Assembly: GCA_026874595.1 (NCBI GenBank)
Contig: CM049306.1
Location: 80,254,142-80,318,141 of the forward strand
Source: Sipunculus nudus
Taxonomy: Eukaryota > Annelida > Sipuncula > Golfingiida > Sipunculidae
DNA: 64,000 nt
Direction: 5' to 3'
Positions within the stretch are counted from its first letter, which is position 1; every line of letters begins with the position of its first letter. The notes beneath the pieces are model-generated. The model saw only the letters and a program-made list of their open reading frames with translations. It made no database searches and had not been told where the DNA came from. Below, one piece after another: positions 27,306-46,384 of the stretch. The position numbers were made by a program, and so were the translations under genes.

Positions 27306-27395
<90 letters not shown>

Positions 27396-30300
27396 CCTCG
27401 CAGTGCATATCATATTTAACAAAAAATGTTCTTTCCCTAAATTTTAGAACGAATGAAGATGACACTAAGGAGACTTTACTTATGGTGCTTCAGACCAGTT
27501 GGGAGAGGAAGTTGCTGCACAAATACGGGCAGGAGATATGTTTGTTAGACGCAACTTACAAAACGACCAAATACAGCATTCCTTTATATTTCCTGTGCGT
27601 AATGACAAACGCTGGATACAGCACAGTAGCAACTGTTATCACACAAAATGAAACGACAGCATGTTTAGAAGAAGGACTGCAGTTTTTAAAAGAATGGAAT
27701 CCCGACTGGCTACCGTCCCATTTTATGACGGATTTTGACGAGAGAGAAATCCAGGCCTTAGAGAACACATTTCCAGGTACGGAAAACAGAGAGTCATTAC
27801 ATCGTGTATATAAGATTTATTTTTCTGGTGAATATGAATTTAGTCAACTGCGCACGACTTACAACGTTACTCCACATTCACAGTTGGGTATTAAAGGAAG
27901 GCTTAAGGCGTATAGTATTTATATAGAGAAACATACTTTATAATACCACAAGGCCTACAGGCCTTATGCGAACCTGTGCAATGGTTAATACACCAGGTAT
28001 AATACTCAATGCTGGGCCATTACTTTTCAAATAGGTCTACATGCCTTGTATACGATGAAGATATCAGAGATGTATACATATGCCCAATTTCAGGCTAATA
28101 ACCCCTCGTGAGAAATAAGCAGGGACATGCACTGTGCAAAAACTATTGTAGGTGGTGCCACCAGTCTTGTTTACGACAAAGCTTTATGATATGTATTAAT
28201 TTGCCCAATTTCAGGCTGATATATCAAAATCCTCTGGAGAAATAAGCAGGCACATACACTGTGCAAAAGTCGTCATAAGTGGCGACAACTGTCTTGTTGA
28301 CGAGAAAGCCATCAAAGACGCATAGACAGGTCAAAATATCAGGCCAATAAATCAAACTCATTGAGTTTGATGCACTGGGCTGACCAGGCTTAGGTGAGAA
28401 AGGCAGTTGCCCCGAGTAAACTGTGACAAATTGCTGCACTTGGAGAGCTCTTGACCTGTTGCATAATCTGACACAGTTGGCAGTCCACCAAAGCTATAAA
28501 TAGAATCCAGCTTCTGCACTGAGTGAACTCTTGACCTAAACCTGGCTTGACTGAGTGAACTCTTTACCTGTTGCCTAATCTGATACAGTTACCAGTCTGC
28601 CAAAGTTATAAATAGATCCAGGCTGAGGCTGACCTTTAGGCTGTTGCAAAATCTAAAATAAGTTGGCAATCTGTCAAGCTATTTTACCTGAAATCTAGTG
28701 GGATGATGTTATAGATGCTGATACACTGGTGCCATGCTAGATGTAACTGCTTCACACAGCTAACATATATGGTAAAATGACTCAATTCAATCTTCATAAT
28801 TCAGCTAACATCATTCATGTGGAACCATAAAAGACAATTATTATAAGAATTATTGTGGTTATTATTCTTATAAAATATTTAAAAAATTTGGCCTAGTGGC
28901 ATCAGTCAAAAAATGTTTTGCAGGTTTTTCACTAATATAGGAAGATGCAGCAAAATGACTAAGTTAAGCTTCCCATAACTCAGCCAAATAGCACTGAACC
29001 AAAACCATTTGAACAAACTTGAATTATCAACATCTAAGGATAGTTAATGTGTGAGATTTAAGAATTTGGCCCAGTGGTTTTTGAGAAGATCTTTGTAGCC
29101 ACTGAGTTTTGGCTCACAGGTTCGCTATAAATGTTAAGGCGGTGACCCATATTTCAAAGGGGTGACGGCTAACAGATATATAGTGTTAAAACAAGCAGAC
29201 TGACAATGTATCTCAACAGGATTTATGCATGGATAATAACATCTCATGTCGTGAGCACTAAATAGTTAATTATGTAAACAGTTTTATTTCTGTATCTTTT
29301 AACGCTAATGGGCAACTGTAAAATCCTGCAACATTTGATTCGAATGTAAATGCTTTACATACAGTTTCAAAGCCTTTGTTCCTATTTCTTTGTTTGTTAG
29401 GGTGTATTTTGTATGAAAACTTTCTATGATAAGCGATAATCATTTTTGCAATTGCAGAATGTCTGGTATATCTATGTGACTTTCATCGAGAGCAGGCTTG
29501 GAGGAGATGGTTGCAAAAAACGAAACACGGAATGAAAGACCAAATGAACGATGCTCTGTTCCTGTAGGTGAAGCATTTTGCTCCCTCGAGGAGATTTGTC
29601 AAATTTAAGCAAGTTTCTTTTCCACATGTGAGATCTGCAAAAATATATTAGTCAAGTTCACATTCCAGTATAAGGGACAGAAATCTACAGTTGTAAATTT
29701 GGATTCGCTCCGGTCATCGAACCAGTTGAAATAACCGCGGATTGTCATTCTATAAGATTCGCATGTCTGGAAGGCAGCCTTGTCTGTTTTGTCAAAAAAA
29801 TGAACTGATGCCTTGTGTATTTAAAATTATTTTTACACATTGTACATACTTATTTTATATATTTAAACAATAACCACATTTTCTTTTGTATGTATCTGGT
29901 ATTATGTGTTAGAGATTATATGTATTTGGTATCACAGTGTTGAAGATGTATATTGTTAATTGGTTGGTCAAACACAATTCATTTAACCAGTTTAAACTTT
30001 CTCCAATTTCAGACTGAGAGCTATTGCGAAAGCGAAAACACATGAAGAGTACCAACAAAACCTCTCTCGTCTGCGTGACTCCACCCTTTGGAAAGACCAT
30101 GCTGAATTCCAACGATGGTTGAATCACAAGTGGTTAAATCAAACTAAGGTATCAGAGGTTATCATTTGTATCATCATCTGTAACAGGCTTTTTCATTATT
30201 TCTTTCAGTTTTAATGTACATGGCTGTTATTATAACGGGAAGGTACTACTTAATCTCGAACAGATTTTTCATTGTACACTCTATCCACTGAAATGTGATA

Positions 30301-33300
30301 GATGTAATTCAAATTTATGCATGTTCTCAAATACGATTCATCGAAATGTTTCACTTAAGATGACAAGTGGCGCTACATACATTCAATTACCTGGTTTCTC
30401 TGAAATTTACTTTGGTGAATATCAAACATTTCTCAAGAGCAGTCACGTGAAAGCCCTTAAATTATGACTGTCCTAATATGTCTAGTTGGTCCCAATCCCA
30501 CTGATTAAGGCTTGACCACTCTCAGTTTTCTAAACGAATAAATTTTCTTTGTGTCCGCAGAATACCTTAAATACAATAAAATATATGTTTTTATTCAGAG
30601 GTGGGTGCACGCGTTCAGAGCAAATGATATGAATGTCAAAATCAACACTACCAATGGGTTAGAGCGCCAGCACCAGGAACTTAAGAGAAAACATTTTGGA
30701 TCCTGCAGTAACAAGACCTTGTGTGGCCTTCTTCGTACGGTCCTCAACAAGTTTCTGCCTGACAGGAAAGAGCAGTGAGTATTTTTCTGGACCGGAAGAT
30801 ATTTAAATTCATCTAAAGTTATCAAACTTATGATAAAAAAAATTAAAAGCGAACATGTGGATTTCTTCAGAACTTTCATTTTTTTATGAATTAAAAGAAA
30901 GCACCTTGTGAGAAAATATTCCAGTTTAGCTCGGCCGACTGTAAGTCAACTGACCTCCTGTAATCAATCACCATCCGTCAAGCCAACCGTTAACAGGGCA
31001 CAAACGCTGGCATAAGAGTTAGGGTCATGAATCCAATGCAGTCTCTGAGGCCATAGAAATATCCTAGGACACCTGAAATAAGGTCAATGTAACTCGAGTT
31101 GCAACCCCCCCCCTCCCATTTCATCCCCCCATTTTGGTCACATTTTCTATTTGTTTTTGAAAGTGTCAAATCACAGCAATCATATTACTTTCTCAGCTCT
31201 GCATGGTCTGATCTAGTGTCCCGAAACCCTGATTGATCATGACTTGTTTAATCAGTTTGTAAAACTGGTGGCACCATCTGTATTTTTTTTCTAATTTTCG
31301 CACAATTTTCTGTTTGGGAGATCGTTATCCTAATTCCTATCTTCATCTTTGATAGTCACCATATTAGCTATATACTGGGCTACACATCTCAACAATAGGT
31401 CATTGTCTGATCTCAGCTGAGCATCATGACCCATGGGTCACTTGTGACACGCACTTATATATTTCATATTTCTTGTTTTTTACAGACATTAACCCTTAAA
31501 CATCTTCATCAGTAAAATTGGTGTTTGCTGTTTTATAATGCTTCAGGTATGAACAAGTGAACACTGCCTGGCGATCAGATGTACGTTCTTACAGCGAAGA
31601 AGTACCCGTGTGGCTCCAAAATAGACCGCGGTTGTTTGTTAGGCACTGCATGGAAAACATGCCGGCAGACATGCACTCAACATATGTAACAATGACTTCT
31701 CCAGGAACTTTCTCTGTGTCAACTGAAAACAGAAAAGACCACATTGTCAAATTTCAAGGGATAAATGGAATGCCTCACTGTACTTGTCAGGCATGGTCAA
31801 GGACACACTGGCCATGTAGCCATATGCTAGCAGTGTTTATACAAAACCCTGACTGGGGCTGGGAAAAATTCCCAACTGAATACCAAGAAAGTCCAATATT
31901 CAATCTTGACATAGAAACTGATGTGTGTCCAGGTAAAGCTTCAACGCCACATGAAAGAGAGGCCATGGGGGCATCAGAACCAAGCCAATCAAGCTCAGAG
32001 TGCATAGGAACACAGACAAAAAATGAAGAAAAGACATTTACATGCAGCCCAGTTCAAAAAGACATTTTACCAAACCAAACTTTAACTGTCAACCAACCTG
32101 TCGGTCGATTGATGAGCAGCTGCAGGGAAATGTTACAGGAACTTACCAGCTTTACATATCTTATCACGCAACCAGATACAGCTATTTTACTGCAGCAGCA
32201 ATTACAGTTACTACTCACATCAACAAAGGATGCAGTTCCTTCAACTGCTGGGTTACCTCTGCTGCCTTCAAGAAAGAGGCGTCGAACTCTTACACCTGTA
32301 GCAAACACAAAAGACCCATTGAAATATGGTAATCCAGATAAATATACTGCAAAAGATGAAGGTATGGACAAAAATGATTAACATAAACTTGATAAGAATT
32401 TCCTCAATCTGTTTTAGAGAAGTTGACCATATTTTTATCGATATTTAGATCCAACTGTTTATCCGGGTTAAAGAAAGAGGTTGGTAAATTAAATGCATAA
32501 TCCACACAAAAATAACATACAAAATTAAATGCAACAATTCTTTCCATCCAGGTAACTTTTTCAAGAAACTTGAAATGAAGAGAAAGACAGCCGTGACGCA
32601 TCTCTCAAGTACCCCTGCTGCTATTTATCTCAATGATGTAGGTAACTGACATGATAAGAATACACAGTGATAAAGGATTATTTTTAGAGCATTAAAATTA
32701 TCTGGAGATAAACAAAAATTGAAAAGCATTTAATTTTTATATGCAAACAAAGAACATGACATGGATGCAAAACATGAAGTCAAACTTTTTTTATTATTTA
32801 TCCTGTAAAATATTTATATAAACCGTACTGAAATATCTATACTTACCAATATATTTCTTTTCATTTGGGTGCAAACACCCTTTCACTAATTCTGCTACTT
32901 CATACATCAGGAACTTCCAGACCTGTGCCCACTGGAAATTTCAAGTGTTACTGCAGATCATCAAATCCATGAAGAACTGGTACGTTATATTCTTTCAGTT
33001 AATATAATATCATACGGATTATAATAAAATATTCTGATAGCACAGTTGTGAAATAATATTTGGAAAAGAATAGAAAAAGGATCACATGTACTAACGCATT
33101 GGAAATAAATACTGTTATATTCTCCTGCTGCATGAGCCACTGTGAATGAATTGAAGGGTTTTAGAGCAAATCTTTTGGTGCATAGAGAGCAAAGAAACCT
33201 TAGCTTTGTGATTGTTTCAGGATCTGCCCGACCCTAGCTCATCCAGCCATCCAGAAAATACTCTTGACCACCAGAATGATTTCGCAGACACTGTAAGTAG

Positions 33301-36300
33301 GTTTACTATTAGTTGCAATGCAAGTCGAGAGGGTCACACCTAATGTTACCTTTAAAAAAGCTGATATAAGCATTTATTCTAACTTTTTGTTTTCACAGGA
33401 TCTGTGGCTTGATCGCCAGAAAAATATCCCTTACACCATAAGTTTGGTTTATTATTCAAAAATCAGGTAGCTACTTATAACGCACATTGAGAGGATTATG
33501 CTTGACCATTCTGTTTTGAAAACCACATCTGATAATATATATTCTAACCTTTTGTTTTCACAGGATCTGTGGCTTGATCACCAGAAAAATAACCCTTACA
33601 CCGTGAGTTTGGTTTATTTTTCAAATATCAAGCTCCTTGTAATGTACATTGAGAGGGTTACACTGGACTAGTCAGCTGAGAAAACAACATCTGATCATAT
33701 ATGTTCTGACTTTTTGTTTTCACAGGATCTGTCGTTTGATCACCAGGAAAACATCCCTCACACAGTAAGTTTGGTTTATTATTCAAATGTCTGACAGCTA
33801 CCTCTTATGCATATCGAGAGGGTCACGCCTAACTAGTTTGCTGAGAAAACCACATCTAATGATATATATTCTGACTTTTTATTTTCACAGGATTTGTTAC
33901 TTGAACACAGCAAGGATACCCCAAACAAAGTAAGTTCCTTTATCATTTAAATAGGACTCTGCAACTAGTAATACATTCTGACATGACCACATCTAAAAAA
34001 AAATATTGTTGAAACATATTAACCTTCTACCTATTCATTCAGGACCTGCAAGACCCCACCTCACCACGCCACCCTGAAAACCTGGTTGACCCCAAGAAGG
34101 ACATCCCAGGCACCGTAAGTTTTCTTTAATTCATATATCAAGACTTTGGGAGGGTCACCACTAATCATTCTGTCATTAACACAATCCTAATCCAAAACAT
34201 ATATTCTGAGTTTCATCTTGTTATAGGATCTGATGGACCCCACCTCACCACGCCACAAGGAAAACCCGCTTGACCACCTGGAGGACAACCCAGACACCGT
34301 AAGTTTTCTCCTATTCCTATATCAAGACTTTACTTGTTATGCATTTTGAGAGGGTCACCACTAATCATTCTGTCATTAACACAAACCTAGTTCAAAACAC
34401 AAATTCTGAAATTCTTCTTTTTATAGGATCTGATGGACCCCACCTCACCACGTCACCAGGAAAACCCGCTTGACCACCAGGAGGACAACCTGGACACCGT
34501 AAGTTTTCTCCTATTCCTATATCAAGATTTTACTTGTTATGCATTTTGAGAGGGTCACCACTAATCATTCTGTCATTAACACAAACCTAGTTCAAAACAC
34601 AAATTCTGAAATTCTTCTTTTTTATAGGATCTGATGGACCCCACCTCACCACACCACCAGGAAAACCCGCTTGACCACCAGGAGGACAACCCGGACACCG
34701 TAAGTTTACACCTATTCCTATATCAAGACTTTACTTGTTATGCATTTTGAGAGGGTCACCACTAATCATTCTGTCATTAACACAAACCTAGTTCAAAACA
34801 CAAATTCTGAAATTCTTCTTTTTATAGGATCTGATGGACCCCACCTCACCACACCACCAGGAAAACCCGCTTGACCACCAGGAGGACAACCCGGACACCG
34901 TAAGTTTTCTCCTATTCCTATATCAAGATTTTACTTGTTATGCATTTTGAGAGGGTCACCACTAATCATTCTGTCATTAACACAAACCTAGTTCAAAACA
35001 CAAATTCTGAAATTCTTCTTTTTATAGGATCTGATGGACCCCACCTCACCACGCCACCAGGAAAACCCGCTTGACCACCAGGAGGACAACCCAGACAGCG
35101 TAAGTTTTCTCCTATTCCTATATCAAGACTTTACTTGATATGCATTTTGAGAGGGTCACGACTAATCATTCTGTCATTAACACAAACCTAGTTCAAAACA
35201 CAAATTCTGAAATTCTTCTTTTTATAGGATCTGATGGACCCCACCTCACCACGTCACCAGGAAAACCCGCTTGACCACCAGGAGGACAACCCGGACACCG
35301 TAAGTTTTCTCCTATTTCTATATCAAGATTTTACTTGTTATGGATTTTGAGAGGGTCACCACAAATCATTCTGTCATGAACACCAACCTAGTTAAAGCAC
35401 AAATTCTGAAATTCTTCTCGTTATAGGATATGATGGACCCCACCTCACCACGCCACCAGGAAAACCTGCTTGACCACCAGGAGGACAACCCGGACACCGT
35501 AAGTTTTCTCCTATTCCTATATCAAGATTTTACATGTTATGCATTTTGAGAGGGTCACCACTAATCATTCTGTCATTAACACAAACCTAGTTCAAAACAC
35601 AAATTCTGAAATTCTTCTTTTTATAGGATCTGATGGACCCCACCTCACCACACCACCAGGAAAACCTGCTTGACCACCTGGAGGACAACCCAGACACTGT
35701 AAGTTTTCTCCTATTCTTATATCAAGATTTTACTTGTTATGCATTTTGAGAGGGTCACCACTAATCATTCTGTCATTAACACAAACCTAGTTCAAAACAC
35801 AAATTCTGAAATTCTTCTTTTTATAGGATCTGATGGACCCCACCTCACCACACCACCAGGAAAACCTGCTTGACCACCTGGAGGACAACCCAGACACCGT
35901 AAGTTTTCTCCTATTCCTATATCAAGATTTTACTTGTTATGCATTTTGAGAGGTTCACCACTAATCATTCTGTCATTAACACAAACCTAGTTCAAAACAC
36001 AAATTCTGAAATTCTTCTTTTTATAGGATCTGATGGACCCCACCTCACCACACCACCAGGAAAACCTGCTTGACCACCAGGAGGACAACCCGGACACCGT
36101 AAGTTTTTCTCCTATTCCTATATCAAGATTTTACATGTTATGCATTTTGAGAGGGTCACCACTAATCATTCTGTCATTAACACAAACCAAGTTCAAAACA
36201 CAAATTCTGAAATTCTTCTTTTATAGGATCTGATGGACCCCACCTCACCACACCACCAGGAAAACCTGCTTGACCACCAGGAGGACATCCCATACACCGT

Positions 36301-39300
36301 GAGTTTTCTTTTTTTCATATATTAAGACTTTGGGAGGGTCACCACTAATCAGTCTGTCATTAACACAATCCTAATCCAAAACATATATTCTGAGTTTCAT
36401 CTTGTTAACAAGATTTCAAGATTTTATTTGTTATGCATTTTGAGAGGGTCACCACTAATCATTCTGTCATTAACACAAACCTAGTTCAAAACACAAATTC
36501 TGAAATTCTACTTTTTATAGGATCTGATGGACCCCACCTCACCACGCCACCAGGAAAACCCGCTTGACCACCTGGAGTACAACCCGGACACCGTAAGTTT
36601 TCTCCTATTCCTATATCAAGATTTTACTTGTTATGCATTTTGAGAGGGTCACCACTAATTAGTCTGTCATTAACACAATCCTAATCCAAAACATATATTC
36701 TGAGTTTCATCTTGTTATAGGATCTGATGGACCCAACCTCACCACACCACCAGGAAAACCTGCTTGACCACCAGGAGGACAACCTATACACAGTTAGCTT
36801 TTTTTTATTCAAATATAAGAAACTACTTTTAATGCAGTTTGGAGGGGCACACCTAATTTGTTAGAAGAGAAACAAATGCTTTCAAAAACAGTCTTGTTTT
36901 TTTTTTTTTATTATTATAACAAGATCTGTCTCCAAATACCCCACACACTGTAAATTTAACTTGCTGTCAAATTTGGAGTAGCATTTCAATATACTCAGGG
37001 TGTAAATTGGGAAAAAAATTTAGGCCATCACTTAAAATGCTTATGAGATTTGGGAAACTTTTTGTAGTGAATGAATGATTAAAGGTGGCATCACGTATGC
37101 TGCATATGCAACTAGAATATGGGTAGTTGACAACGACCACGTGTAACCGCCAAAATCAGAGTAGTGAGTAGATGTGTTACATATTAGCATGGATGTCTGC
37201 CATGTTAACATGATTTTAGTTGGCATTACCTGTTATTTGAAGGAGAAACTATCCAAGATGTATACACATGCAAAATTTCAGGTGGATAAGTCAAACCACT
37301 GCCGATACTTAAGTGGTTTTATCCCACAGCAGACAAACAGATGGACACTGTGCAAAAATGGTTGTAGGTGGCACCACCAGTTTTGTGTATGATAAAGGGC
37401 TATGTGATATCTAAACACATGCAAACCAGACCAAAGATATTAGTATGGATGTCTGCAGCATGAATATGAATGAAGGTTGCGCCACCTGTCATAAAATCAA
37501 GACAGTCATCCAGGATGTATACGTATGCTGAATTTCAGGTGGATAAGTCAAACCACTGCAGAGATATGAGTGATTTTACCCAAGGCAGATGAACAAATGG
37601 ATGCTGTGAAAAAAGGTGGCAGGAGGCACCACCATTTTTGTGTATGTTATAAAGCTATCCAAGGACTACATGTGTGCAAAATTTTTTTCCTGATTGGTCA
37701 AACAAGTCCAAGATATGTGGGTTAATGTGTTAAAACAGACGCACAGATGGATGCACTGGAGAGAGGAAAGGTCAGAGGTCAACGCCAAATGGTAAAGCAC
37801 CAGTTCACATTTTAGCCGATAACTGGTGTAACTGATCTTTACCTTGTGAACTATAAACTGGGAATTTACTATACATGAACTTGCATCATTTTGATTTTTA
37901 TAACAATAAAGTTGGTCCAGTTACCTTGACCTGTTAACCACAAAGTCTACAGAATTATTCCACTTTTGGGAGATGAGCCATATGTGAAAGAAGGGTTTAG
38001 GATGAAATGTTTGAGTTTAAATACATCCACAATCTTTTTAAAGATGTGGGTTCTGGGACCTCCAACTTTGAATTGGGACCCTGAAATCATAACGACTTTT
38101 AATGTAGTATTTGGCCATTATTAAATCAAGTTTGAAGCCAAACTGTCTATAGATCCAAACCGGAATTATCATCCATTTGTCAATGGATGGCCCTGTGACC
38201 TTGACACATAAATAAAAAAGAATTAGCAGGTGAGCAATATCTGGAAGATTAACGTTTTTGATTAAAAAATCCACTTTAAATCCATGCAAAATCTTTTTAA
38301 AGAAAATGATCCTGTGACCCTGACATTGGAAGCTCATGACCCTAATGAACTTCAATATGGTTCTTACTTTAGTGGAGGGCCATATATAAAACAAGTTTGA
38401 AACCAATATATATATGCATTTCCATTTTTATTGTTATAGGTTCTGCCTGAACTACATCAACCGAGGCCCCGAGAGAAAAAGAATTCAAGTCAGAAAAATA
38501 GACCATGCTCAGTAGGTGATTTTCTTGCATGCTGGAACTATTTCCATACTGATCTGTTTATTGAATTATCCTAAAAACCAACAGCTGAGGAAACATATGA
38601 AGTCACTAAATGTTCTAAATTGCTGACAAAGTCTACACATTAATGCCTTATTATTAGTACTGCATCTACTTAAACAAAAGACAACTAATTTCAAAGATAT
38701 GTGTAACACAACTGTATATACCGGTACTTAGGACTTGTTGTTGAACACTGGATATATTATCTGCAGATGATTAGTATATATCAGTTTATGTGTTTCTTAC
38801 GCTTTATTTTCATACATATTTGACAGGAACTTGAACACCAAGATGATGTAAACATGACGTGCACATCTTCAGAGGCTGGGAACAGGACATTGGTAACTAA
38901 TTCCTCAACCACCTTGAAGTTATAACTTAAAATAAATTTCTGACAATTAAATAAAAGAAACACTTGTTTTATGTGCATATTATCAGGCCTTTTTTTACGG
39001 TAGAATAGACCTTTGATGAAGCTTCCATTATCATTTTTTGCAATATCACTTTATTGAACAATTATCCAGTATTTCTTGAAAATCTTTGTTTCACTTAATG
39101 TTCAATATTATAAATATATTCACAGACTCCAGTCATGCCAGATGTATTACATTTATGGAAGTACCACGCCAATGACTCTTCACTTGTGGCAATGGTGCAA
39201 GGCCACAAGATTCACAGCAACTCCATTGGGTCACTAGCTCCAGGAGCTTGGGTGGCTGATGAGGTATAACACTTTGAATTTCTTCTTTATAATTGTGTGT

Positions 39301-42300
39301 GTGCCAGAATGTAATTACAGGCAAGTTATTAAGTTTTTTTACATCCTGATGCTCAAAATGTGTTACTCATTTTTTTCCTTGATGAAGTTAGGTACCATTC
39401 ATGCAGTTAAGGTTTCATGTTTGTTTCATAAGCATGTCCGTTTGACAACAGAACCTAATCCAACAGTTATTTTCATTATTTACAAGGCTTTGCAGAAGTT
39501 TGCTTTCTAAAGAAAGACTGCCATTAGTATTTTCTACCCACATCAAACCCCAAATACTGTTACCATATTATCAGCAGCAAATCCTCTAGCTGAAACATAA
39601 AAGTAACTCATGCTGTTACATGAGAACTATTTCATGCTTCAAGTGACTAAAATATAATTATTTTTCAGGTTATAAATGCATATTGCCAATTGAAGGCAAC
39701 AAGGACACAGAGGATGAAAGTGCATGTAATGGATGTTTTCACATCCTCATCAATAATTATGTCACCCCAGAATGCAAGTTTTCAATGCAGAGTAAGTATT
39801 TAGATGGTTTTGTCTACAGATGTACACATGATCAACAGATTAAACATCTCTACATCTCGGACCATGTCAGAAAACCAGAAAAACTTTAAATCAGTATAAA
39901 TTCAGCATAGTGACAGTAAACTAAATGAAGAATACAGAAAAAGTGAACTAAAATATGTCTGATATAAATAAATAATGAACAAAACCTGCAACATTTATTG
40001 TTTTATTATCTGTTTGTTTATTCTGCATTTTACATTAGCTGTCTTTTGGGGAATACAACAGAATCATTGCACCATTCAATTCAGGAGGACACTGGGAACT
40101 CTTATGTATAAATCCAACAAAAAATGAAGTACTATACATCGATCCATGTGGGGAGAAAGACTGTAAAGTTCAAAAGATCGCTCAGTCATGGAGAATATAC
40201 ATGAGGCGCAGAAAACACAATGGATTAGACCAAAACAGACCAGAAAAGTGGAGAGTAGTGACAACCAAACACGACACACAGCAGGACTACTCAAGCTGTG
40301 GGATATATGTTCTGAAGGTAGTACAATAAAAGAGTACAGTATAATTTTTCAATATACATTAAGCTGGTTGTATGAAAAGAAATATAGTAATACTACAAAA
40401 ATAAAACTGCTTTATCTCTAAGTACAATGAGTATGAGTACAATATCATTTTTCAATATAATATAACCTTTATTTATTTTACATGGATTTTGTATCTAGTT
40501 ATAATAACTTATATGAGGCACTCTCCATGGCTTGGATGGTTGTGCTCAGTAGTCAGTTAGGGTGGAGGAAACTGGAGAACCCAGAGAAAACCAACCTTGG
40601 ACGGGCCACTATAACCCACTCTCATAGCCATGCCGTGATTCTAACCCAGGTCGCCGGCAGAGAAGGCCAAGCATTTTACCACTCAGCTGTCCAGGCCCCC
40701 ATTTTTCAATATACATAATGTTGGTTGTATGAAAAGGAATATAGTAATACTACAGAACTGAAACTGCTTTAGCTCTAAATTTATAATTTATGTAACTTAT
40801 TTCATGGTCCCACTATCATCAAACTACCTTACTTTCAGAGTCTGTATTGACAATAATTTCAACATCTTAAATCTTAAATCAACACAAATATGTAAATTTC
40901 TGTTATCTAATAAAATTACTGCTTTATTCTAAAAACAAATGAATCAATTAGAGATAAAAATTTAAATTTAATTAAAGTTTAAATCTGGTTATTTTGCAAG
41001 TAATATAGTTTTAAAGCTAGTAATATTTGTCTGATATAATATTTTGAATAAATGTTTGTTATTTTATATTAGTTGATAATGAAAATCATGTGATAATCAT
41101 CAAATTTATATCACACTCACAGACTGCATGTAGAGTATATCAATATGGCCTCACTAGTGAACTGTTATGTTTTCAGTTTGCAGAACAGCTTTTAATGAGC
41201 GAGGACCTCATATGCTGTCCAGCCAATGTAGACAATTACAGAAGACAAATAGCACCGACTTTACTGGATTCAAGTGGTAAGTAAAAGTTTTTAGTAAGGG
41301 CTGTTGTAACATTATGTCACACTTCAGCCTGGGAACAGGCTTTAATAACCCAAGCTCCAGTCATGACTTCATAATGCACATCATAAAAAACCTGTAATTA
41401 GTATAATCACTACTGAATCTCAGGAGTGATCTTGAGGTAGTCATGAAATGCGTGATATTAATTACCATCATAAATGACCAGCTAGACACAAGGACAATAT
41501 ACAAAGGCCCATTGCTATGGCTCAGCATGACTGAAAGTCGGCTGAGCTATCAAGTAACAAAACAATGGGTGCGTCATGGCAAGATACACATTTGTTAAAG
41601 GGACCCAATCACCAATAAAGCATGTGGAATAAACACGAAAAACAGCTTCTTCCCTTTAAAATATTTCAGTACCTGCCAAAATATTGATCAGAGGTGTCAA
41701 CATAAACACAGCGTGTGGGGCCGTGTCAACAACACATGTCAATCATGATATGCCCTGACTGACATGGCCCCAATAATGGTAATACAAGTTCCCGCTGGCT
41801 GAAACACTGCAAGTTGCAGCTCATAATCGGACCTCTGATCACACTGCCTTGTTATGGTAAACAGACACACATTTACTGTGTTTACTAACAAACGCAGCCA
41901 TAACAAGGTGTTAAACAGCCGTATGCTAGGTAGTGAGATTGTGTGCTGGGATCGTTTTGCTGGGAAACTTTTGTGTAAACAAAACTGAATGGCTGAACCG
42001 ATAGTGTGAAAGGATAAGCATAATATAGTGACTGATTATGTCCCTTTAATGACCAATTACATGTAACACTTTATGAAAAGGATTCTGCCTTTCAGCACTA
42101 TGGCTTTGAATTTTCTAAGTAATTTTTATGTGCTTACACCTGTATTGTCACTGTACTTTTTGAAGGATTTTTTCATCAGGATAACTATATTCTACAGTTT
42201 ATTCATACTAATCAGGATAATCATTTCAGGCTTTTTACACAGAATCTGGTCAGAGGGATTGATTTAAAATGACTGTAAAGATTTCATTAAAATGGCTTTT

Positions 42301-44209
42301 AACCAGTGACATGTTTAACAAAATGCCAAGAAATATGAAATGCTGCTAGAACTTAATTGGAAATCTCATTCCCACAGCCTGTGTAAAAGCATCACATGCA
42401 GAAATACTACACAAACTTTTCTATTTGGAAATGAATTATAACTTTTTTTACATTCTTTTTATAAAATCATGGAGTCATCAGATTTGTTTTTACCTATATT
42501 TGTAGGCTGCGTGAAGAATTACTGTCGTGAGTGTGCTGCAGCAACTGGTGATACAAACTTGGTAAGTATTACATATAAAAAAAGTAACATTTACCTCTAT
42601 TTTTTGCATGGTGATGTACAAAAACACAAAGGTGCAAGGGGACACACTTGGATGGCTGGGGGGAGGGGGGGGGGGGAAGCATTTAACTTGCTTAAATTTT
42701 GTACAGTAATATAGGTCAGAATATATGCAAGATCAAGACTAAAGGTTTTGTTGCCAAGACTACTACCATTACTAAGGAACCATGGGTCTTAATGCTCAGC
42801 TGAATTTGTCTATAAGGATATATTTATGAGCTTTTTAAAATGGGTCCTGTGAGTTAGACCCTTAACCTAAAATCTGAGTCCTTACTATCCTTGAACTTGC
42901 ACAATTTGATTTTCATAACAATATTAAAAAAAAGTGGGTCCAGTGAGTTTTGTAACCAGATAACCTCAAAATCAACATTTCTTCAACTTTTGGCAGAAAA
43001 GCCAAATGTGAAAGATGTAAGGTTTGGGATGAAAAGCTTGAATTACAATGCATCCACAATCTTTTAAAAGATGTGGGTCCTATGACCTTCACCCTTGACC
43101 TCCAGACCCCGAAATAAAAATGATTCTTATTTTAATGGTGGGTCATTAATAGACCAAGTTTGAAGTCCATCTGTCTAGATACAAACCAGAGTTATCATCC
43201 ATAAACTAATCTGTCAATAGATGAGGACTGTGACCTTGAGCTTTGACCCTGGGACCCCAAAATAAAAAAGAATCTTCCCTATTAGCAGTATATGAACAAT
43301 ATCTGTAAGATGGAATGTTTGTGATGAAAAGTCTGACTTAAACTGCATGAACAATCTTCTTAAATTGGTTGGTCCAGTGACCTTGACCTTTGACCCAAAA
43401 ATCATTAGGGTTCTTGCTTTAGTGGTGGGTCATACATAAGTTTGAAATCCATATGTCAATTCAAACTGGAGTTATCATTTGAAAACAAATATTTGGATAG
43501 ACAAAAAGACGGACAGAAATATGGACAGACAGGGTGATTACTATAGGGCACCCACCCTCCAGGTTCTGGCACACAAGATGAAACCACAGCTGAGAAACTT
43601 TTTTTTTTACTTGTGACATGCTTTTTTTTATCTGATTTATCTTTCTTCCATAGCTTTCATGTTCATGTTTAGTAGATGGTTTTTACAGATACCCTTAATT
43701 TGCAGGTCCAGTGTGATAACTGCCACTGGTGGTGCCATTACAAATGTACTGGAATGAGATGTGGGATGGCTGCAATGAAGACAAAAGTCTTTCTTTGTAC
43801 TGTGTGCAAAAATTTTCCACCTACTGCCACTCCAGAAAGGACCCATGAGTGCATCAAAGAACTGAAGGACCCTTTTATTTTGGTGAAGCTGACCACTGGA
43901 AGAATATGCCAAGGATGCAGAACACGCTTTAAGAAACCACCGCATGGAAAAGATGAAATTGTCCTGAAACATCGTGAAACTTATTATTATTACAATAAAT
44001 ACTGTGGTAAAGAAACCCAAACAACAGGCAACAGATATTATCATGCAAGAGCTAACTGTGTCCTTAAAATACACAACTCCTTCATCTTAGATGATCTCAT
44101 CATTCCTCAGGAAACAGAGTCATTTTTAACAAAGAAACATGCAGTGGAACTGTGCAGAAATGGGATTTATAATAATCACATTATCAACAAGGCTATCAGC
44201 AAATCTTAG
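17255..44209 (+). CDS. Large multi-exon gene: CaRF-like region, MULE transposase, SWIM finger, cassette linker, C48 peptidase, PHD finger
   Basis: Joining exons with GT-AG borders and compatible phases gives one frame of about 5,190 nt (1,729 residues) from ATG 17,255 to TAG 44,207-44,209. Exon phases agree at every junction. The parts are listed separately below. A protein that recognises DNA (MULE/SWIM), could cut an isopeptide or propeptide bond (C48) and could read histone tails (PHD) would act in the nucleus. MULE-family proteins with a Ulp1-like protease are known from plant Kaonashi elements, and zinc-finger/protease combinations from other large transposons. Whether this is a domesticated host gene or an intron-bearing transposon is not decided: the TATA promoter and about 39 exons favour a resident gene, while the full DDE triad leaves a mobile origin open. 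I found no terminal inverted repeats around it. Confidence 0.75.
17445..21165. other. Intron 1, first part: mostly unremarkable, with a repeat fragment near 20,626-20,935
   Basis: AT-rich intronic sequence. The only shared repeat is at 20,626-20,935, where two successive head segments of the dispersed repeat occur (GAGCTATAGTCATGGTCCTT and GTCCGTCCGTCCGTC twice, about 120 bp apart). Short open frames here lack splice signals and are not called. Confidence 0.6.
21173..21805. mobile_element. MITE-like element with inverted CCGTAGTCCGCATGCG arms
   Basis: ATCCGTAGTCCGCATGCG at 21,173-21,190 pairs with its reverse complement at 21,751-21,768 (16 of 18 matching). Further copies of TAGTCCG and CGCATGCG lie just inside both ends (21,240-21,280 and 21,700-21,735). 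The interior of about 550 bp has no coding potential. This is the layout of a non-autonomous DNA transposon with subterminal repeats. The exact ends and target duplication are not clear. Confidence 0.6.
21806..23137. other. Intron 1, middle part: nothing recognised
   Basis: AT-rich sequence with a C homopolymer at about 22,748-22,765. No exon, RNA gene or shared repeat seen. Confidence 0.5.
23138..23710 (+). repeat. Modular dispersed repeat, plus-strand copy
   Basis: Opens TTTTTAGTTCAGCTGACTG, AAAGTCATCTGAGCTATAGC, GTCCGTCCGTCTGTC. It holds two modules about 320 bp apart, each starting CCGTTAACCAGGCA and continuing TGGACCTAGAATCTT and GGTCTCTGTTA-like text. It closes with GTGACCCATGGATCATGACG then CTCAGCTGACTG. 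A related plus copy lies at about 30,905-31,453. Confidence 0.7.
23693..24660 (-). repeat. Modular dispersed repeat, minus-strand copy abutting the plus copy
   Basis: Sequence from GTGACCCATGGATC through AAAGGAAATTTTATCATCTG to GGTTAACGGACGGACAGACA is the reverse complement of the same family and aligns with the copy at 59,995-61,262. Modules end at about 24,150 and 24,635. It shares the palindromic end GACCCATGGRTC with the preceding plus copy, so the two sit as an inverted pair. A G homopolymer lies at about 24,479-24,494. Confidence 0.65.
24906..25078 (+). CDS. Exon 2: CaRF-like zinc-ligand region
   Basis: Acceptor TTCAG at 24,905 and donor AAG|GTGCAA at 25,079; it enters in phase 1 and leaves in phase 0. 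It encodes DENATMGHKVWWDAPQ, then a Cys, then FGPYVILGRPIYECQHGND and a basic tail with RHKNAKRKLRK. The ECQHG..RH pattern is the Cys/His cluster typical of CaRF-like and FLYWCH/WRKY-GCM1-type N-terminal DNA-binding regions of MULE-derived proteins. The assignment to a specific fold is inference. Confidence 0.7.
25122..25270. mobile_element. Short MITE with ACAGGCGC(A/G)GATCC terminal inverted repeats
   Basis: ACAGGCGCAGATCC at the left end and GGATCCGCGCCTGT at the right end are inverted repeats with one mismatch. The 149-bp element carries a C run at about 25,227-25,242. It sits in intron 2, 44 bp after the exon 2 donor. Flanking T-rich sequence (CTTTTT on the left, TTTT on the right) hides the target duplication. 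Confidence 0.75.
25616..25735 (+). CDS. Exon 3: CaRF-like region, GCPAKVQVREV motif
   Basis: Acceptor CACAG, donor CAA|GTAATG, phase 0 on both sides, 40 codons. It carries a basic KQRKRKKLIQNSKKLGCPAK stretch followed by VQVREVYQFGCFQ. The CPAK(I/V)xV(R/K)E motif marks the end of the zinc-binding N-terminal region in CaRF-like and related MULE-type proteins. The basic run could also serve as a nuclear localisation signal. Confidence 0.75.
26096..26236 (+). CDS. Exon 4: basic and acidic helical linker
   Basis: Acceptor TTAAAG (a weak pyrimidine context), donor GAG|GTAATT, phase 0 on both sides, 47 codons. It encodes EHAQNQWRRRQAVRKIKHGD and then an acidic stretch with RFYVALCEEADHQYHLCGE. No separate domain recognised; charge and spacing suggest helices between the zinc region and the next domain. 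Confidence 0.7.
26407..26627 (+). CDS. Exon 5: CaRF-like domain, DIRNHIY motif
   Basis: Acceptor ATCCAG, donor CAG|GTAAAT, phase 0 in and phase 2 out. It encodes PAASVQPVDARIIKEIHTLH, then a segment with GVAKVTEMDRMLEHYVK, and ends FNPTSQDIRNHIYLASVSNR. The VDxRIIxxIxxL ... VxxMxxxLxxYVKxEL ... FxPTxxDIRNHIY order is the pattern I associate with calcium-responsive transcription factor (CaRF)-like proteins. Confidence 0.75.
26835..26927 (+). CDS. Exon 6: linker into the transposase domain
   Basis: Acceptor ACATATAG, donor CATAG|GTATAT, phase 2 on both sides. It encodes HSASDQSNTAAMIEEWKKEN and PEDFIFFRPHR, the usual run-up to the MULE catalytic core (a short helix, then an F/R-rich strand). 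Confidence 0.7.
27309..27391. repeat. TA microsatellite in intron 6
   Basis: About 82 bases of pure TA, only about 57 bp before exon 7. It stays open in frames that read YIYIYI, which falsely extends the exon upstream. Confidence 0.95.
27448..27776 (+). CDS. Exon 7: MULE transposase core with first two catalytic Asp
   Basis: Acceptor ATTTTAG, donor CCAG|GTACGG, phase 2 in and phase 1 out, about 109 residues. YGQEICLLDATYKTTKYSIP holds the first Asp (27,548-27,550) in the D-x-T-Y...(I/V)PL context of MULE transposases. FMTDFDEREIQALENTFPG holds the second Asp (27,731-27,733) in the (T)D.....A....FP context. In the MULE fold these ligate the metal ions that drive strand transfer. Confidence 0.85.
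27777..29457. other. Intron 7, with a GCCAAT/CACCAGTCTTG-type dispersed repeat
   Basis: About 28,010-28,450 carries GGTGGTGCCACCAGTCTTG, CCCAATTTCAGGCTGATA and GAGAAATAAGCAGG twice. Related phrases (GGTGGCACCACCAGTTTTGT, AAATTTCAGGTGGATAAGTC) recur at about 37,040-37,790 and 50,830-51,175. No exon seen. Confidence 0.6.
29458..29563 (+). CDS. Exon 8: MULE transposase C-x2-H motif
   Basis: Acceptor ATTGCAG, donor CCT|GTAGGT, phase 1 in and phase 2 out. It encodes ECLVYLCDFHREQAWRRWLQ and then KTKHGMKDQMNDALFL. The LCxFHxxxAWxRW segment is the conserved C(x2)H signature between the second Asp and the Glu in MULE/MuDR-type transposases. Confidence 0.85.
30013..30148 (+). CDS. Exon 9: helical insertion of the transposase domain
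   Basis: Acceptor ATTTCAG, donor AAG|GTATCA, phase 2 in and phase 0 out. It encodes LRAIAKAKTHEEYQQNLSRL and then a segment with LWKDHAEFQRWLNHKWLNQT. This is the alpha-helical stretch between the C-H motif and the catalytic Glu, ending in the aromatic W..W pattern typical of MULEs. Confidence 0.8.
30599..30774 (+). CDS. Exon 10: MULE transposase catalytic Glu
   Basis: Acceptor ATTCAG, donor GCA|GTGAGT, phase 0 in and phase 2 out. It encodes RWVHAFRANDMNVKINTTNG followed by LERQHQELKRKHFG. The TTN.xE..N/H..LK motif supplies the catalytic Glu (30,662-30,664), so D, D and E are all retained, although retention alone does not show activity. Confidence 0.85.
30905..31453 (+). repeat. Modular dispersed repeat in intron 10
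   Basis: Opens CAGTTTAGCTCGGCCGACTG, AAGTCAACTGA, then CCGTTAACAGGGCACAAACG. It closes with CTCAGCTGAGCATCATGACC then CATGGGTCACTTG. Same family as 23,138-23,710 and nearly the same length. Confidence 0.65.
31547..32361 (+). CDS. Exon 11: SWIM zinc finger and long Ser/Thr-rich tail
   Basis: Acceptor CTTCAG, donor GAAG|GTATGG, phase 2 in and phase 1 out, about 271 residues. The N-terminal part (WLQNRPRLFVRHCMENM ... KFQGINGMPHCTCQAWSRTH) leads into CxC (31,779-31,787) and CxH (31,815-31,823), spaced as in SWIM fingers (CxCx9CxH). SWIM fingers follow the DDE domain in MULE transposases and help bind DNA or partners. The rest is low-complexity and glutamine-rich (LLQQQLQLLL), with a basic RKRRR that could be a nuclear localisation signal. 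If the donor is not used, the frame ends six codons on at 32,381, which would give a short isoform stopping after the SWIM region. Confidence 0.85.
32552..32637 (+). CDS. Exon 12: short basic linker exon
   Basis: Acceptor CATCCAG, donor GAT|GTAGGT, phase 1 in and phase 0 out. It encodes GNFFKKLEMKRKTAVTHLSS and TPAAIYLND. No domain recognised. Phase and clean splice sites support inclusion. Confidence 0.65.
32911..32979 (+). CDS. Exon 13: first acidic linker exon
   Basis: Acceptor CATCAG, donor CTG|GTACGT, phase 0, 23 codons (ELPDLCPLEISSVTADHQIH then EEL). The E/D-L-P-D start and the inner DHQ echo the cassette exons that follow, so it may be their diverged relative. Confidence 0.65.
33221..33292 (+). 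CDS. Exon 14: diverged 72-bp cassette exon
   Basis: Acceptor TTTCAG, donor ACT|GTAAGT, phase 0, 24 codons beginning DLPDPSSSSHPEN and ending LDHQNDFADT. It has the same length, phase and layout as the amplified cassettes at 34,227-36,792 but a diverged sequence, which suggests it is an older member. Confidence 0.75.
33399..33929 (+). CDS. First cassette array: four 39-bp exons, one with a lost donor
   Basis: Exons at 33,399-33,437, 33,564-33,602, 33,726-33,764 and 33,891-33,929, spaced 162-165 bp, each 13 codons in phase 0: DLWLDRQKNIPYT, DLWLDHQKNNPYT, DLSFDHQENIPHT and DLLLEHSKDTPNK. The introns are also copies of each other (AGTTTGGTTTATT after the donor, TTTTGTTTTCACAG at the acceptor). 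The first exon is followed by ATAAGT instead of GTAAGT, so it is probably skipped. Skipping keeps the frame, while reading through reaches a stop after ten codons. Confidence 0.7.
34043..36792 (+). CDS. Second cassette array: fourteen 72-bp phase-0 exons
   Basis: Exons start at 34,043, 34,227, 34,427, 34,628, 34,828, 35,028, 35,228, 35,427, 35,627, 35,827, 36,027, 36,227, 36,521 and 36,721; each is 72 bp. The usual product begins DLMDPTSP(H/R)HQEN, continues (P/L)LDH(Q/L)ED and ends NPDT. It is acidic and rich in Pro, His and Asp, likely disordered. Acceptors are TTATAG and donors CC|GTAAGT throughout. From 34,227 the repeat period is about 200 bp and the introns of about 128 bp are as alike as the exons. 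The first copy (34,043) is the most diverged. All phases are 0, so any number of cassettes can be included without a frameshift. Confidence 0.85.
36923..36949 (+). pseudogene. Decayed cassette exon with a lost acceptor
   Basis: GATCTGTCTCCAAATACCCC then ACACACT would read DLSPNTPHT and is followed by GTAAAT as donor. Compared with the 39-bp cassettes it lacks 12 bases in the middle. The AG before GATCTG is gone (TTATAACAA in place of TTTATAG). It is most likely a dead cassette. Confidence 0.5.
37040..37790. repeat. Dispersed repeat in the linker-to-protease intron
   Basis: Contains two internal rounds of AAATTTCAGGTGGATAAGTC, CAAACCACTGC and AGGCACCACCA(G)TTTTGTG. The same phrases occur at about 50,830-51,175, with weaker relatives at 28,010-28,450. 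No coding potential. Confidence 0.65.
37791..38420. repeat. Dispersed repeat with GACCTTGAC/TATCATCCAT landmarks
   Basis: GATGTGGGTTCTGGGACCTC, AAGTTTGAAGCCAAACTGTC, ATTATCATCCATTTGTCAAT and GTGACCTTGACA occur in the same order at about 42,840-43,540 in a later intron of the same gene. Two diverged copies of one family. Confidence 0.65.
38440..38511 (+). CDS. Exon after the cassettes: basic 24-codon exon
   Basis: Acceptor TTATAG, donor TCA|GTAGGT, phase 0, 72 bp. It encodes VLPELHQPRPREKKNSSQKN and RPCS. Length and acceptor match the cassettes, but the sequence is basic and unrelated at the residue level. Confidence 0.65.
38827..38892 (+). CDS. Acidic 22-codon exon before the protease domain
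   Basis: Acceptor TTGACAG, donor TTG|GTAACT, phase 0. It encodes ELEHQDDVNMTCTSSEAGNR and TL. It resembles the cassettes in phase and acidic start but has no close sequence match. Confidence 0.6.
39126..39263 (+). CDS. C48 peptidase domain, N-terminal exon
   Basis: Acceptor TTCACAG, donor GAG|GTATAA, phase 0, 46 codons. It ends IGSLAPGAWVADE, which joins VINAYC from the next exon. L.PG.W(L/V).DEVIN is the substrate-binding entry motif of Ulp1/SENP-type (C48) cysteine peptidases. Confidence 0.75.
39669..39791 (+). CDS. C48 peptidase domain, second exon
   Basis: Acceptor TTTTCAG, donor AGA|GTAAGT, phase 0, 41 codons starting VINAYCQLKATRTQRMKVHV, then MDVFTSSSI. In Ulp1-like folds this is the helix after DEVIN and the strand (here VHVMDVFTSS) leading towards the catalytic His. 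Confidence 0.75.
40039..40317 (+). CDS. C48 peptidase catalytic exon (His, Asp, Gln, Cys)
   Basis: Acceptor CATTAG, donor AAG|GTAGTA, phase 0, 93 codons. The catalytic His is at 40,090-40,092 (GGHWELLCI), the Asp at 40,141-40,143 (YIDPCG), the oxyanion Gln at 40,279-40,281 and the nucleophile Cys at 40,297-40,299 (QQDYSSCGIYVLK). This is the Ulp1/adenain order H-D-Q-C with the expected Q-to-C spacing of six. Members of this fold remove SUMO or related modifiers, or act as viral and transposon maturation proteases; which substrate is used here is unknown. Confidence 0.85.
40515..40700 (-). mobile_element. tRNA-derived SINE, minus strand
   Basis: On the minus strand: CTGAGTGGTAAAATGCTTGG (A-box-like), then CGACCTGGGTTAGAATCACG (B-box-like), then a body with GAGTGGGTTATAGTGGCC and TTCTCCAGTTTCCTCCACCC. 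The body matches the plus-strand element at 63,775-63,990. The surrounding intron is itself duplicated: TTTTTCAATATACATWA, GGTTGTATGAAAAG and ATATAGTAATACTACA occur at about 40,345-40,420 and again at about 40,700-40,780 on either side of the SINE. Confidence 0.65.
41177..41276 (+). CDS. C48 peptidase domain, C-terminal exon
   Basis: Acceptor TTTTCAG, donor AGTG|GTAAGT, phase 0 in and phase 1 out, 33 codons: FAEQLLMSEDLICCPANVDN then YRRQIAPTLLDSS. This is the closing helix (FAE.LL) after the Cys motif and the helix with YRR.I...LL that ends most Ulp1-like domains. Confidence 0.75.
42506..42561 (+). CDS. PHD finger, first half
   Basis: Acceptor TTTGTAG, donor TTG|GTAAGT, phase 1 in and phase 0 out. 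It encodes GCVKNYCRECAAATGDTNL. CREC supplies the first Cys pair of a C4HC3 PHD finger that is completed by the next exon. Confidence 0.75.
42780..43560. repeat. Second copy of the GACCTTGAC/TATCATCCAT dispersed repeat
   Basis: Same landmark order as 37,791-38,420 (ACAATCTTTTAAAAGATGTG, AAGTTTGAAGTCCATCTGTC, GTTATCATCC, TGTGACCTTGA). It is followed by GACAGACAGGGTGATTACTA, an inverted head of the GTCCGTCC family. A G-rich run lies just upstream at about 42,659-42,676. Confidence 0.6.
43706..44209 (+). CDS. Last exon: PHD finger second half and C-terminal domain
   Basis: Acceptor TTTGCAG, phase 0 in, 167 codons to TAG. VQCDNCHWWCHYKCTGM and FLCTVC complete the PHD finger: Cx2C (previous exon), Cx2C, Cx4Hx2C, then Cx2C after 16 residues. 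PHD fingers bind histone H3 tails. The remainder has ICQGCRTRFKKPP, YYYYNKYCG and RYYHARANCVLKIHNSF, with spaced Cys and aromatic residues that could form a further zinc-binding module of a kind I do not recognise. Confidence 0.85.
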   Translation, partial: VQCDNCHWWCHYKCTGMRCGMAAMKTKVFLCTVCKNFPPTATPERTHECIKELKDPFILVKLTTGRICQGCRTRFKKPPHGKDEIVLKHRETYYYYNKYCGKETQTTGNRYYHARANCVLKIHNSFILDDLIIPQETESFLTKKHAVELCRNGIYNNHIINKAISKS

Positions 44210-44451
44210 TTGGAAATTGCTTTAAGCTGTGTATTATTACCTTGTTTTACATGGCTTTGGGCCATAATCAATTAATAGTGACTTATGTTATAAGCCAGTT
44301 AAGTGGAATGTGTGACAAGAATTGGTGTATTTATAAATTCAACATGTGGACTTATGAAAATTTACTCTTAATACAGGATGATATGAAGATTAATGTCGAC
44401 ACCACTTAGTTTATATGTATGATTATATAAAACAGAAAATTACAGGCTAAC

Positions 44452-44950
44452 TGAATATGCCAAGGATGCAGAACATGCTTTGAGAAACCACCGCATGGAA
44501 AAGATGAAATTGTACTGAAACATTATTATTACAATAAAACTGTGAAAAAGAAACCCAAACAACAGGCAACAGATATTATCATGAAAGGGCTAACTGTGTC
44601 CTTAGAATACACCATTCCTTCATCTTAGTAATGTCTTGATTTCAATGGGGAAAAAAAACTGTTTTTAACAAAAAAACATGATCTGGAATTTTGCAGAAAT
44701 GGGATTTATAGTGATCAGATTACAAACAAGGCCGTCAGCAATTCTTAGATCGATAATCTTTTCCATGTATATTATCCGCTTGTTGTTCATGGCTTTGGGC
44801 CATAATCAGTTTATAGTGACTTTATTAAATGCCAGGTACCTGGAATACATGTTGTAAGAGTTGGTGTTTTGATAAATATGACATGTGGACTTATGAATAT
44901 TTAGTCATTTAACATTATGACATGAAGATGAATTCCAACACCACTTACTT
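44452..44950 (+). pseudogene. Decayed tandem copy of the last exon and its 3' flank
   Basis: Sequence from GAATATGCCAAGGATGCAGA through GAAACCACCGCATGGAAAAG to ACCACTTACTTTTTATG repeats about 43,902-44,415 with an offset of about 540 bp. It contains point changes, small deletions and an early in-frame stop, so it cannot extend the protein. It includes the former stop region and flank (CATGGCTTTGGGCCATAATC occurs in both), so the copied segment covered the exon's 3' part plus untranslated sequence. It probably lies in the 3' UTR of the gene. Confidence 0.8.
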
Positions 44951-45055
44951 TTTATGTTTCACAATCTAAACAGGTGGTGTGTTAATTTGTCAACTCTTGG
45001 GCAATCATTAATATTGCATATATTACTAACAGTGCAACAGGTTCAAATTTTGGTC

Positions 45056-45061
45056 AATAAA
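45056..45061 (+). terminator. Possible polyadenylation signal of the large gene
   Basis: AATAAA in GGTCAATAAACATC is followed within about 30-60 bp by T- and GT-rich text (TGTTCATTACTTCATGTTGT). It is the clearest signal after the stop at 44,209. Single hexamers are common in AT-rich DNA, so this is only plausible. Confidence 0.35.
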
Positions 45062-46384
45062 CATCTGAGTTTTATCTTATTGACCGTGTTCATTACTTCA
45101 TGTTGTATACAAGTTATGTATGCATGGGAATATGGTTGAGGAAGACCCACTGACAACATGTGACAAGTTACACAACATGAAAATTACAAAGTTATCAAGT
45201 CCATATAGGTGTCCCATACAGAGAATTTTCAGCTAAACCACACCTGATGCATGATGCTGTAAAATGGATAAACTATCAACTAACCATACCCAGTGTGTGT
45301 TGGTGGAGGAGAAAGTCAGATCATCCTATGTTCCAAAGGACATTGTACTTGGCCAAATTTTATTTCTCATAGAATGACCATACAGGAAAATCAGATAAAT
45401 TAGAGCGGACTGTTTTATCCAAAAAGAAATGTTCCAAACTGGGCTGTTCTAAAACTCCAGCAGGATATAAATATTGACAGTATGGGTATATTAAAAGAAT
45501 GGCTGATACAGATCAATCCTTAAAAAATGCCAATCACTGGCAATCCTTGATGTGCAATTCTTTTAGCATCAAGCTGTTGGAACCCCCTTCAAATAGAGGT
45601 CACTCCGCCCGCCAATCAGGAGAAGCACACCAAGGAACTGCAGTGGCCTTCACTTATAAGGAATGACACTGCATTAACTGTATAAATTATAGACAGAGTA
45701 GTCCATGAATAAGTCACTTTACAACCTGAGCAATACTTAACTATCTCCTTCCATCACCTGAGATCTTCAGCAGAAATTCCATCACATCAGGTCATTAACA
45801 TTACTACAACTATTCTTTTTCATCTGTACCATTCCAGGCTGGGAATGCCCTAAGCTCTATTGTTTCTGAGTTTAAGGTTTCAGCCTGCACCAATTTAGTG
45901 GGAGAGTTAAAAAGATTTCCTCTATTAAAATTCATGCAATTTCTCCTAATTATACCTATGCTTTACTGTATCTAAGATTATTTTATAATACACCCATCAG
46001 ACCAGAAAATGTGGATTTTGGGAAAATTCTGTACAGATACCCAGGGTTAATCAATTTAATGAGCAGCACTCACCAGTGATTCTGCAAAGCCCAAGGACAG
46101 GTCCCTTGACTGAACCCCTCAGCTGAACTTTTTATACCCATCCACAAACACGTGTGTGTACAAAAAAAATAGATATAGTGCAATAATATACATATATTTT
46201 AACCCCACTTTGCAACCACCCCTAAATTGCAAATTCCTGTAAAATTGAGACCACTTTTCTTGTTACTGAATACATGACTCAGGTTATGTAGAATTTCACA
46301 AATATGATTACCTAAAATTATGATCAATCTGGTCAGTCCCCAAGGTGGTCGTAATTCTTGGTTCCACTGTGTATATATAAATAT
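45062..46384. other. Spacer, nothing recognised
   Basis: No exon with matched splice sites on either strand, no RNA gene and no strong shared repeat. Confidence 0.5.

Follow-up and report, generated by a model that had tools for sequence, protein, structure and literature searches.

The DNA analysed here, referred to as the window, is a stretch of 64,000 nt from Sipunculus nudus (assembly GCA_026874595.1, contig CM049306.1, positions 80,254,142 to 80,318,141 of the forward strand). This contig is called C1 below, and coordinates are window positions unless named otherwise. The window holds an element of 45.7 kb (6017-51719) bounded by terminal inverted repeats (TIRs), and inside it lies a predicted transposase gene of 39 exons (24920-44209) that carries a tandem array of short cassette exons. 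The gene model was built by eye and checked by script: exon phases are compatible, and its 1,674 codons end with the only stop.

The predicted protein, encoded on the plus strand, comprises in order an ALS2CR8/CARF-like domain, a MULE transposase domain, a SWIM zinc finger, the cassette linker, a Ulp1-like protease domain and a weak PHD match. Exons 1-4 (24920-26627; first ATG picked by eye) encode the ALS2CR8/CARF-like part (PF15299), for which the joining of exons strengthens the match from E = 1.9e-7 for one exon to 2.5e-27 for the spliced model. The MULE/ZSWIM RNase H-like transposase domain is encoded by exons 5-9 (26835-30774; PF21056, 2e-15; PF10551, 2.6e-12), and the SWIM zinc finger with the region next to it by exon 10 (31547-32361; PF04434, 3.9e-7). 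Visual inspection of exons 6 and 9 gave candidate D, D and E positions of a putative catalytic DDE motif. In the gene model, exons 11-12 (32552-32979) lead into the phase-0 linker, and exons 32-34 (38440-39263) form its end and the lead-in to the protease region. The Ulp1-like (Peptidase_C48) region spans exons 35-37 (39669-41276); the Pfam match itself (5.2e-13) is confined to exons 36-37 and extends over positions 80-207 of the 217-position profile, and the protease piece matches the structure of sentrin-specific protease 2 (SENP2) in the PDB (1tgz, E = 5.6e-4). Exons 38-39 (42506-44209) would encode a PHD-like finger and the C-terminus down to the stop codon. A match to FtsK_4TM (0.028) was beneath its own cut-off and was disregarded. 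When viral contigs were searched, no relative of the MULE exon was found, and the Ulp1 exon gave one pattern match but no relative.

The array proper (34043-36792, plus strand), delimited by exon borders and reading frame, consists of fourteen phase-0 cassettes (exons 18-31). As originally predicted, all 14 exons are exactly 72 nt long and stop-free in frame 0 (GAT CTG ATG ...), and they fit a single predicted gene. The other two frames are both stopped in 13 of the 14 cassettes, the cassette at 34043 being open in one further frame. The splice signals had been given as TATAG and GTAAGT at every exon. The AG before and the GT after are kept in 14/14 cases, but the longer motifs are not universal: TATAG precedes 13 exons (34043 has TTCAG), and GTAAGT follows 12 (36227 has GTGAGT and 36721 has GTTAGC). 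Tandem Repeats Finder (TRF) described 34145-36331 as a repeat of period 200 with 10.9 copies and 95% matches.

The exon array is thus genuine, and it is longer than first described, since it extends upstream by one older 72-nt cassette and four 39-nt cassettes, giving 19 cassettes in all. The older 72-nt cassette (exon 13, 33221-33292, plus strand) is a homologue of the array unit according to nhmmer (E = 1.7e-12). The same program detected the four 39-nt cassettes, which together with their introns occupy 33399-33929 on the plus strand (exons 14-17, starting at 33399, 33564, 33726 and 33891), with E values of 5.6e-9, 2.7e-10, 2.2e-12 and, for the last, only 0.039. All 19 cassettes have a length divisible by 3 and fit the 39-exon model, and the introns among them measure 106-222 nt. 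The 222-nt intron (36299-36520, plus strand) contains a unit that lost its exon. Past the last cassette, 36793-36983 (plus strand) is occupied by a unit-type intron (E = 9.9e-10) and a decayed last unit (36909-36983, E = 2.8e-4). Exons 12, 32 and 33 were also considered as older offspring of the cassette unit and were dropped, as 5000 shuffles gave weak results: the observed score was reached by 169, 4047 and 791 shuffles, respectively, in the comparison with 33221, and by 3151, 481 and 792 in the comparison with the core. The shuffle test is also weak for accepted cassettes (1646/5000 for 33891 and 189/5000 for 33399, both against 33221). The fourteen 24-residue cassettes of the array add up to a linker of 336 aa with 93 D/E, 10 K/R, 34 H and 49 P, so that the acidic linker proposed between the MULE/SWIM half and the Ulp1-like/PHD half was borne out.

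The cassettes were then compared as complete exon-plus-intron units; the units tested are related, so the p-values of these comparisons are only a rough guide. Between adjacent units, substitutions affect 102 of 1129 exonic and 180 of 2049 intronic positions (p = 0.85), which agrees with the earlier statement that introns are as homogeneous as exons and with its corollary that the amplified unit is genomic, an exon with its intron. The 10 full units have a nucleotide diversity (pi) of 0.048 in their exons, as against 0.033 in their introns (permutation p = 0.17). Five CpG sites hold 59% of the exon pi, suggesting that methylation rather than selection drove the changes. Gaps between adjacent units are found at 6 of 1129 exonic versus 42 of 2049 intronic positions (p = 6e-4), both counts including aligner splits: the six exon gaps come from the 33-nt length difference, which the aligner split, and from one compensating pair, and eight intron gaps stem from the single exon-less unit. 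The units at the edges are diverged and the central ones alike, and among 11 cassettes, the farther apart two exons lie in the array, the more they differ (r = 0.38, p = 0.013); both patterns are expected under unequal exchange. Among the older cassettes, 33221 differs from 34828 at 9.7 of 14.5 synonymous and 13.3 of 57.5 nonsynonymous sites (p = 0.0035). The proportion of synonymous differences (pS) is 0.53-0.62 in the four 39-nt cassettes, with a proportion of nonsynonymous differences (pN) of 0.16-0.30, and the cassette at 36721 has pS 0.21 and pN 0.05. Summed over pairs, pN/pS is 0.71 for the 14 cassettes of the array and 0.52 for the four short ones.

The gene had been regarded as a host gene derived from a transposase. 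This view was not upheld, as the gene sits inside a transposon that still has its TIRs and target duplications. The TIRs are 42 bp long and start GGTCGGCATTA; the 5' TIR (6017-6058, plus strand, starting GGTCGGCATTAGATAG) pairs with the 3' TIR (51678-51719, minus strand) at 41 of 42 positions. They are flanked on the outside by GTCCGTGCC (6008-6016) and GTCGGTGCC (51720-51728), the left and right 9-bp target-site duplications, which match at 8 of 9 positions; random 9-mer pairs of the window match equally well with a frequency of 0.00045. Two inverted-repeat searches detected no TIR, one within 14000-60000 (25 longest of 547 pairs) and one of 13000-26000 against 44200-56000, the 5' end at 6017 being outside both ranges. 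Beside the 5' TIR lies a 45-bp minisatellite of 6.5 kb (7225-13763), identified by TRF and motif count. It contains 95 copies of the TIR core AGTACGNCTACTGTAGT; apart from these, the window has this motif only in the two TIRs, one copy in each. The additional copies of the terminal motif beside the TIR suggest that the minisatellite is a putative set of repeated transposase binding sites.

The assembly (1.43 Gb, 153 contigs) was searched for the array and the TIR, the number of places found for the array being a lower bound. The inner 34-mer of the TIR was found at 21 genome sites with at most 3 mismatches (control, 0). Sixteen of the 21 make up eight pairs that face inward at distances of 9.3 to 45.7 kb, and the other 5 are unpaired. 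The target duplication matches at 9/9 positions in six of the eight pairs (six small copies) and at 8/9 in the window copy. In the ends that were read, the first ~1.5 kb of the six small copies resembles that of the window element (95-97%), and in the 1.5 kb next to the other TIR these copies have 12-14 core motifs. Their perfect target duplications suggest that a matching transposase may have been active fairly recently. Judged from the TIRs, the genomic TIR pairs and the target duplications, the window element is a member of a Mutator-type transposon family. It combines the transposase domain, TIRs and 9-bp target duplication by which MULEs are recognised, and the target duplications of these elements are described as 8-11 bp long, mostly 9 bp, with TIRs in most groups and none in some (PMC6446971).

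The array DNA was found in at least two places, the window and a contig called C17, which are 99% identical. When 79.6 kb of C17 were compared with the window extended by 10 kb at both ends (matches of at least 150 bp), the homology ran from 6025 to 51721 with two gaps and stopped at both TIR ends. The C17 copy is without window positions 13.4-26.6 kb, hence without exons 1-4, and without a LINE (47239-50099, plus strand; RVT_1 frame 47212-49899), which is best explained as having entered the window copy later. Over 20.6 kb the two copies differ by 101 substitutions (0.49%) and 20 indel events. Within 33221-36792 there are 20 substitutions and two small intronic indels, and no gain or loss of a cassette: the change in copy number envisaged in the original prediction was not seen in this single comparison of the two array-bearing copies, both of which have 14. 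The donor of exon 14 (33399) is GT in C17 and AT in the window copy, where exon 14 may therefore be skipped without harm to the frame. A 1-nt insertion in the last exon of the C17 copy breaks the frame near its end. The minisatellite side differs at 276 of 7238 aligned positions and by many indels of 33 to 125 nt, the alignment of the repeats being uncertain; the compared 5' parts contain 96 and 102 core motifs. The minisatellite differs by unit-sized indels between two copies that have the same number of cassettes. A further copy, on contig C15 (C15:28996884), is a deletion derivative that joins window positions 7078 and 39179 (98.2% and 99.6% identity) and, over the 1.5 kb compared, skips the exon array.

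Other features were observed within and around the element. The reverse-transcriptase frame of the LINE (47212-49899) is open over 895 aa. A region with inverted repeats (23238-24249), whose arms reach 150 nt at 77%, may represent a small nested element. A decayed tandem copy (~80% identical) of the end of the last exon and its 3' neighbourhood (43902-44431) lies at 44453-44970 and is also present in the C17 copy. Outside the element, a 33-bp tandem repeat at 4404-5349 has open frames of 92-135 codons on both strands.

We consider, with a probability of roughly 0.8, that the window contains a 45.7-kb MULE whose transposase gene has amplified phase-0 exon-plus-intron units that form an acidic spacer. 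The one large gene recognised in the element would specify a single protein in which a Ulp1-like cysteine protease and a PHD-like finger are attached to a transposase. One phase-0 exon and the intron following it would have been recopied repeatedly as neighbouring units underwent unequal exchange. A block of thirteen cassettes would thereby have been homogenised, and old, diverged ones would have stayed at the edges. The cassettes would be spliced into the transcript and yield an acidic, proline- and histidine-rich spacer of about 410 residues between the transposase and protease/PHD halves. The symmetry noted in the original prediction applies here: every cassette starts and ends in phase 0, so that gain, loss or skipping merely lengthens or shortens the spacer. 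The spacer may be disordered and may set the reach between a half that binds and cuts the TIRs and the protease/PHD half.

Several observations weigh against this interpretation. The exon borders of the predicted gene were set by eye, from DNA alone, and the PHD match (PF00628, positions 1-47 of 47, E = 1e-3) scores 19.5 bits, under the Pfam cut-off of 24. The 11 kb between the minisatellite and exon 1 are without explanation. The C17 copy (at 5.30 Mb) lacks a clean target duplication at one of its ends and could not be scored, because one of its TIR ends is eroded. As to constraint, the 13 alike cassettes have a pN/pS of 0.58, indicating only mild constraint, the cassette at 34043 has none (pS 0.20, pN 0.21), and the stop-free state of the 7 old cassettes arose with a chance of 0.13 in simulation and is thus weak evidence. 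Over exons 5-39, the window and C17 copies show 18 nonsynonymous against 5 synonymous codon differences, so that no constraint is visible in recent time.

This last ratio, together with the equal substitution rates of exons and introns in adjacent units (p = 0.85) and the tolerance of dead or exon-less units, speaks for a neutral array, in which the cassettes would be spliced in and useless, symmetric exons being tolerated while the size of the array drifts. Such neutrality would concern the spacer only and is compatible with the transposon; we regard it as possible, on balance doubtful. The old cassettes have kept their length and frame, and pS is well above pN in 5 of the 7 compared, 36721 pointing in the same direction and 34043 not. 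The equal cassette number in two copies whose minisatellites differ is a further point against drift, from one comparison. Tandem homologous exons with conserved introns and frame-neutral cassettes would also be compatible with mutually exclusive or otherwise regulated splicing as in insect Dscam, with one or few cassettes per transcript, which we consider unlikely. No minus-strand match to the unit was found near the array, the three minus-strand matches being weak (E 1.2 to 8.7) and distant, and the three flanking introns contain no docking-like complement to the unit intron: their longest perfect complements are 7, 7 and 9 nt, lengths that shuffled sequences also attained in 98, 97 and 71% of cases, respectively. 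Introns of 106-222 nt are moreover not obviously too short for splicing, which also counts against this explanation.

A host gene domesticated from a transposase would account for the open 39-exon frame and for the low CpG content of the region. In 1-kb windows, the observed/expected (o/e) CpG ratio is 0.07-0.45 across 31-51 kb (31001-51000) and 0.21 at 28-29 kb, compared with 0.62-0.69 at 29-31 kb and 0.45-1.31 across the remaining window. The right edge of the CpG-poor zone is near the 3' TIR. The depletion resembles that of methylated invertebrate gene bodies, germline gene-body methylation being one known cause of CpG depletion in invertebrates (PMC8857923). In the C1 flanks nearest to the element (~16 kb to its left and right), most 2-kb windows have a CpG o/e of 0.69-0.91, which argues against domestication and suggests that the depletion may have arrived with the element; in the C1 flanks the ratio is 1.02 at 4-6 kb and 0.20-0.25 at 68-72 kb, and the C17 site sits in a CpG-poor neighbourhood. 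A domesticated host gene was rejected because of the TIRs and target duplications, and with the second copy and the deletion derivatives it appears very improbable. The original prediction had named an assembly artefact as one of the findings that would overturn it, and tandem near-identical units of 200 bp are a known difficulty for assemblers. Among the 10 full units no two are identical, the smallest distance being 3 differences, and the same 14 units are present at a second locus on another contig, which makes an artefact hardly credible.

The transposon with its amplified spacer shares features with several known systems, as far as these are described in the cited sources. Rehavkus, which is MULE-related, has a 9-bp target duplication, TIRs of 26-400 bp, a PHD finger and a minisatellite before the 3' TIR (PMC6446971). 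The S. nudus element resembles it in target duplication, TIR length and internal minisatellite, and possibly in the PHD finger, for which the match here is weak. It differs in the place of the minisatellite, which is next to the TIR located upstream of the gene, and, by described features, in its SWIM, Ulp1-like and ALS2CR8 domains, its 39-exon model and its length of 45.7 kb. In the six small copies, as judged from their ends, the minisatellite reaches near the other TIR. Plant MULEs may also carry a Ulp1-like cysteine protease domain, which in KI-MULE runs in the direction opposite to mudrA and in other ULP-MULEs in either orientation (PMC2528002), whereas here the protease is part of the same predicted protein, across the exon-array linker, and in an animal genome. 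Iterated exons with nearly identical introns are described for the spider Flag and MaSp2 genes and were read as intragenic homogenisation (PMC1885213); the S. nudus array likewise has introns as alike as its exons, but those are silk structural genes and no transposon genes. Coding exon-plus-intron units also vary in number in LPA, whose KIV-2 repeat is a coding variable number tandem repeat with a unit of 5.6 kb, two exons and 1 to ~40 units per allele (PMC11462820), and in the PEVK exons of titin (PMC6469411), both of which are host genes. The original prediction knew of no such array in a transposase-derived gene; exon-plus-intron amplification in general is known. Its occurrence within a transposon-borne, many-exon transposase gene looks new: among the matches listed from the open-licence literature (titles and beginnings of abstracts), there was no exon array in a transposase gene and no such combination, and we take it as a new form of a known amplification.

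The presence of two arrays in one element raises the question of whether they were amplified jointly for a single purpose, the ~95 TIR-core copies at one end serving as landing sites of the transposase and the acidic linker as a multivalent bridge over many of them that would bring the SUMO-protease/PHD half to the surrounding chromatin. We consider this rather unlikely; if it were true, cassette number would be a tuning knob for the transposition of a very large element. With the amplified-spacer transposon as the preferred interpretation, an exon array that looked like a curiosity comes to belong to a large DNA transposon of an animal, in which a transposase, a protease and a putative chromatin reader would be combined in one predicted 39-exon gene. 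Because sibling copies are present in one genome, it becomes possible to compare how an exon array and a non-coding minisatellite of the same elements grow, decay and are homogenised.

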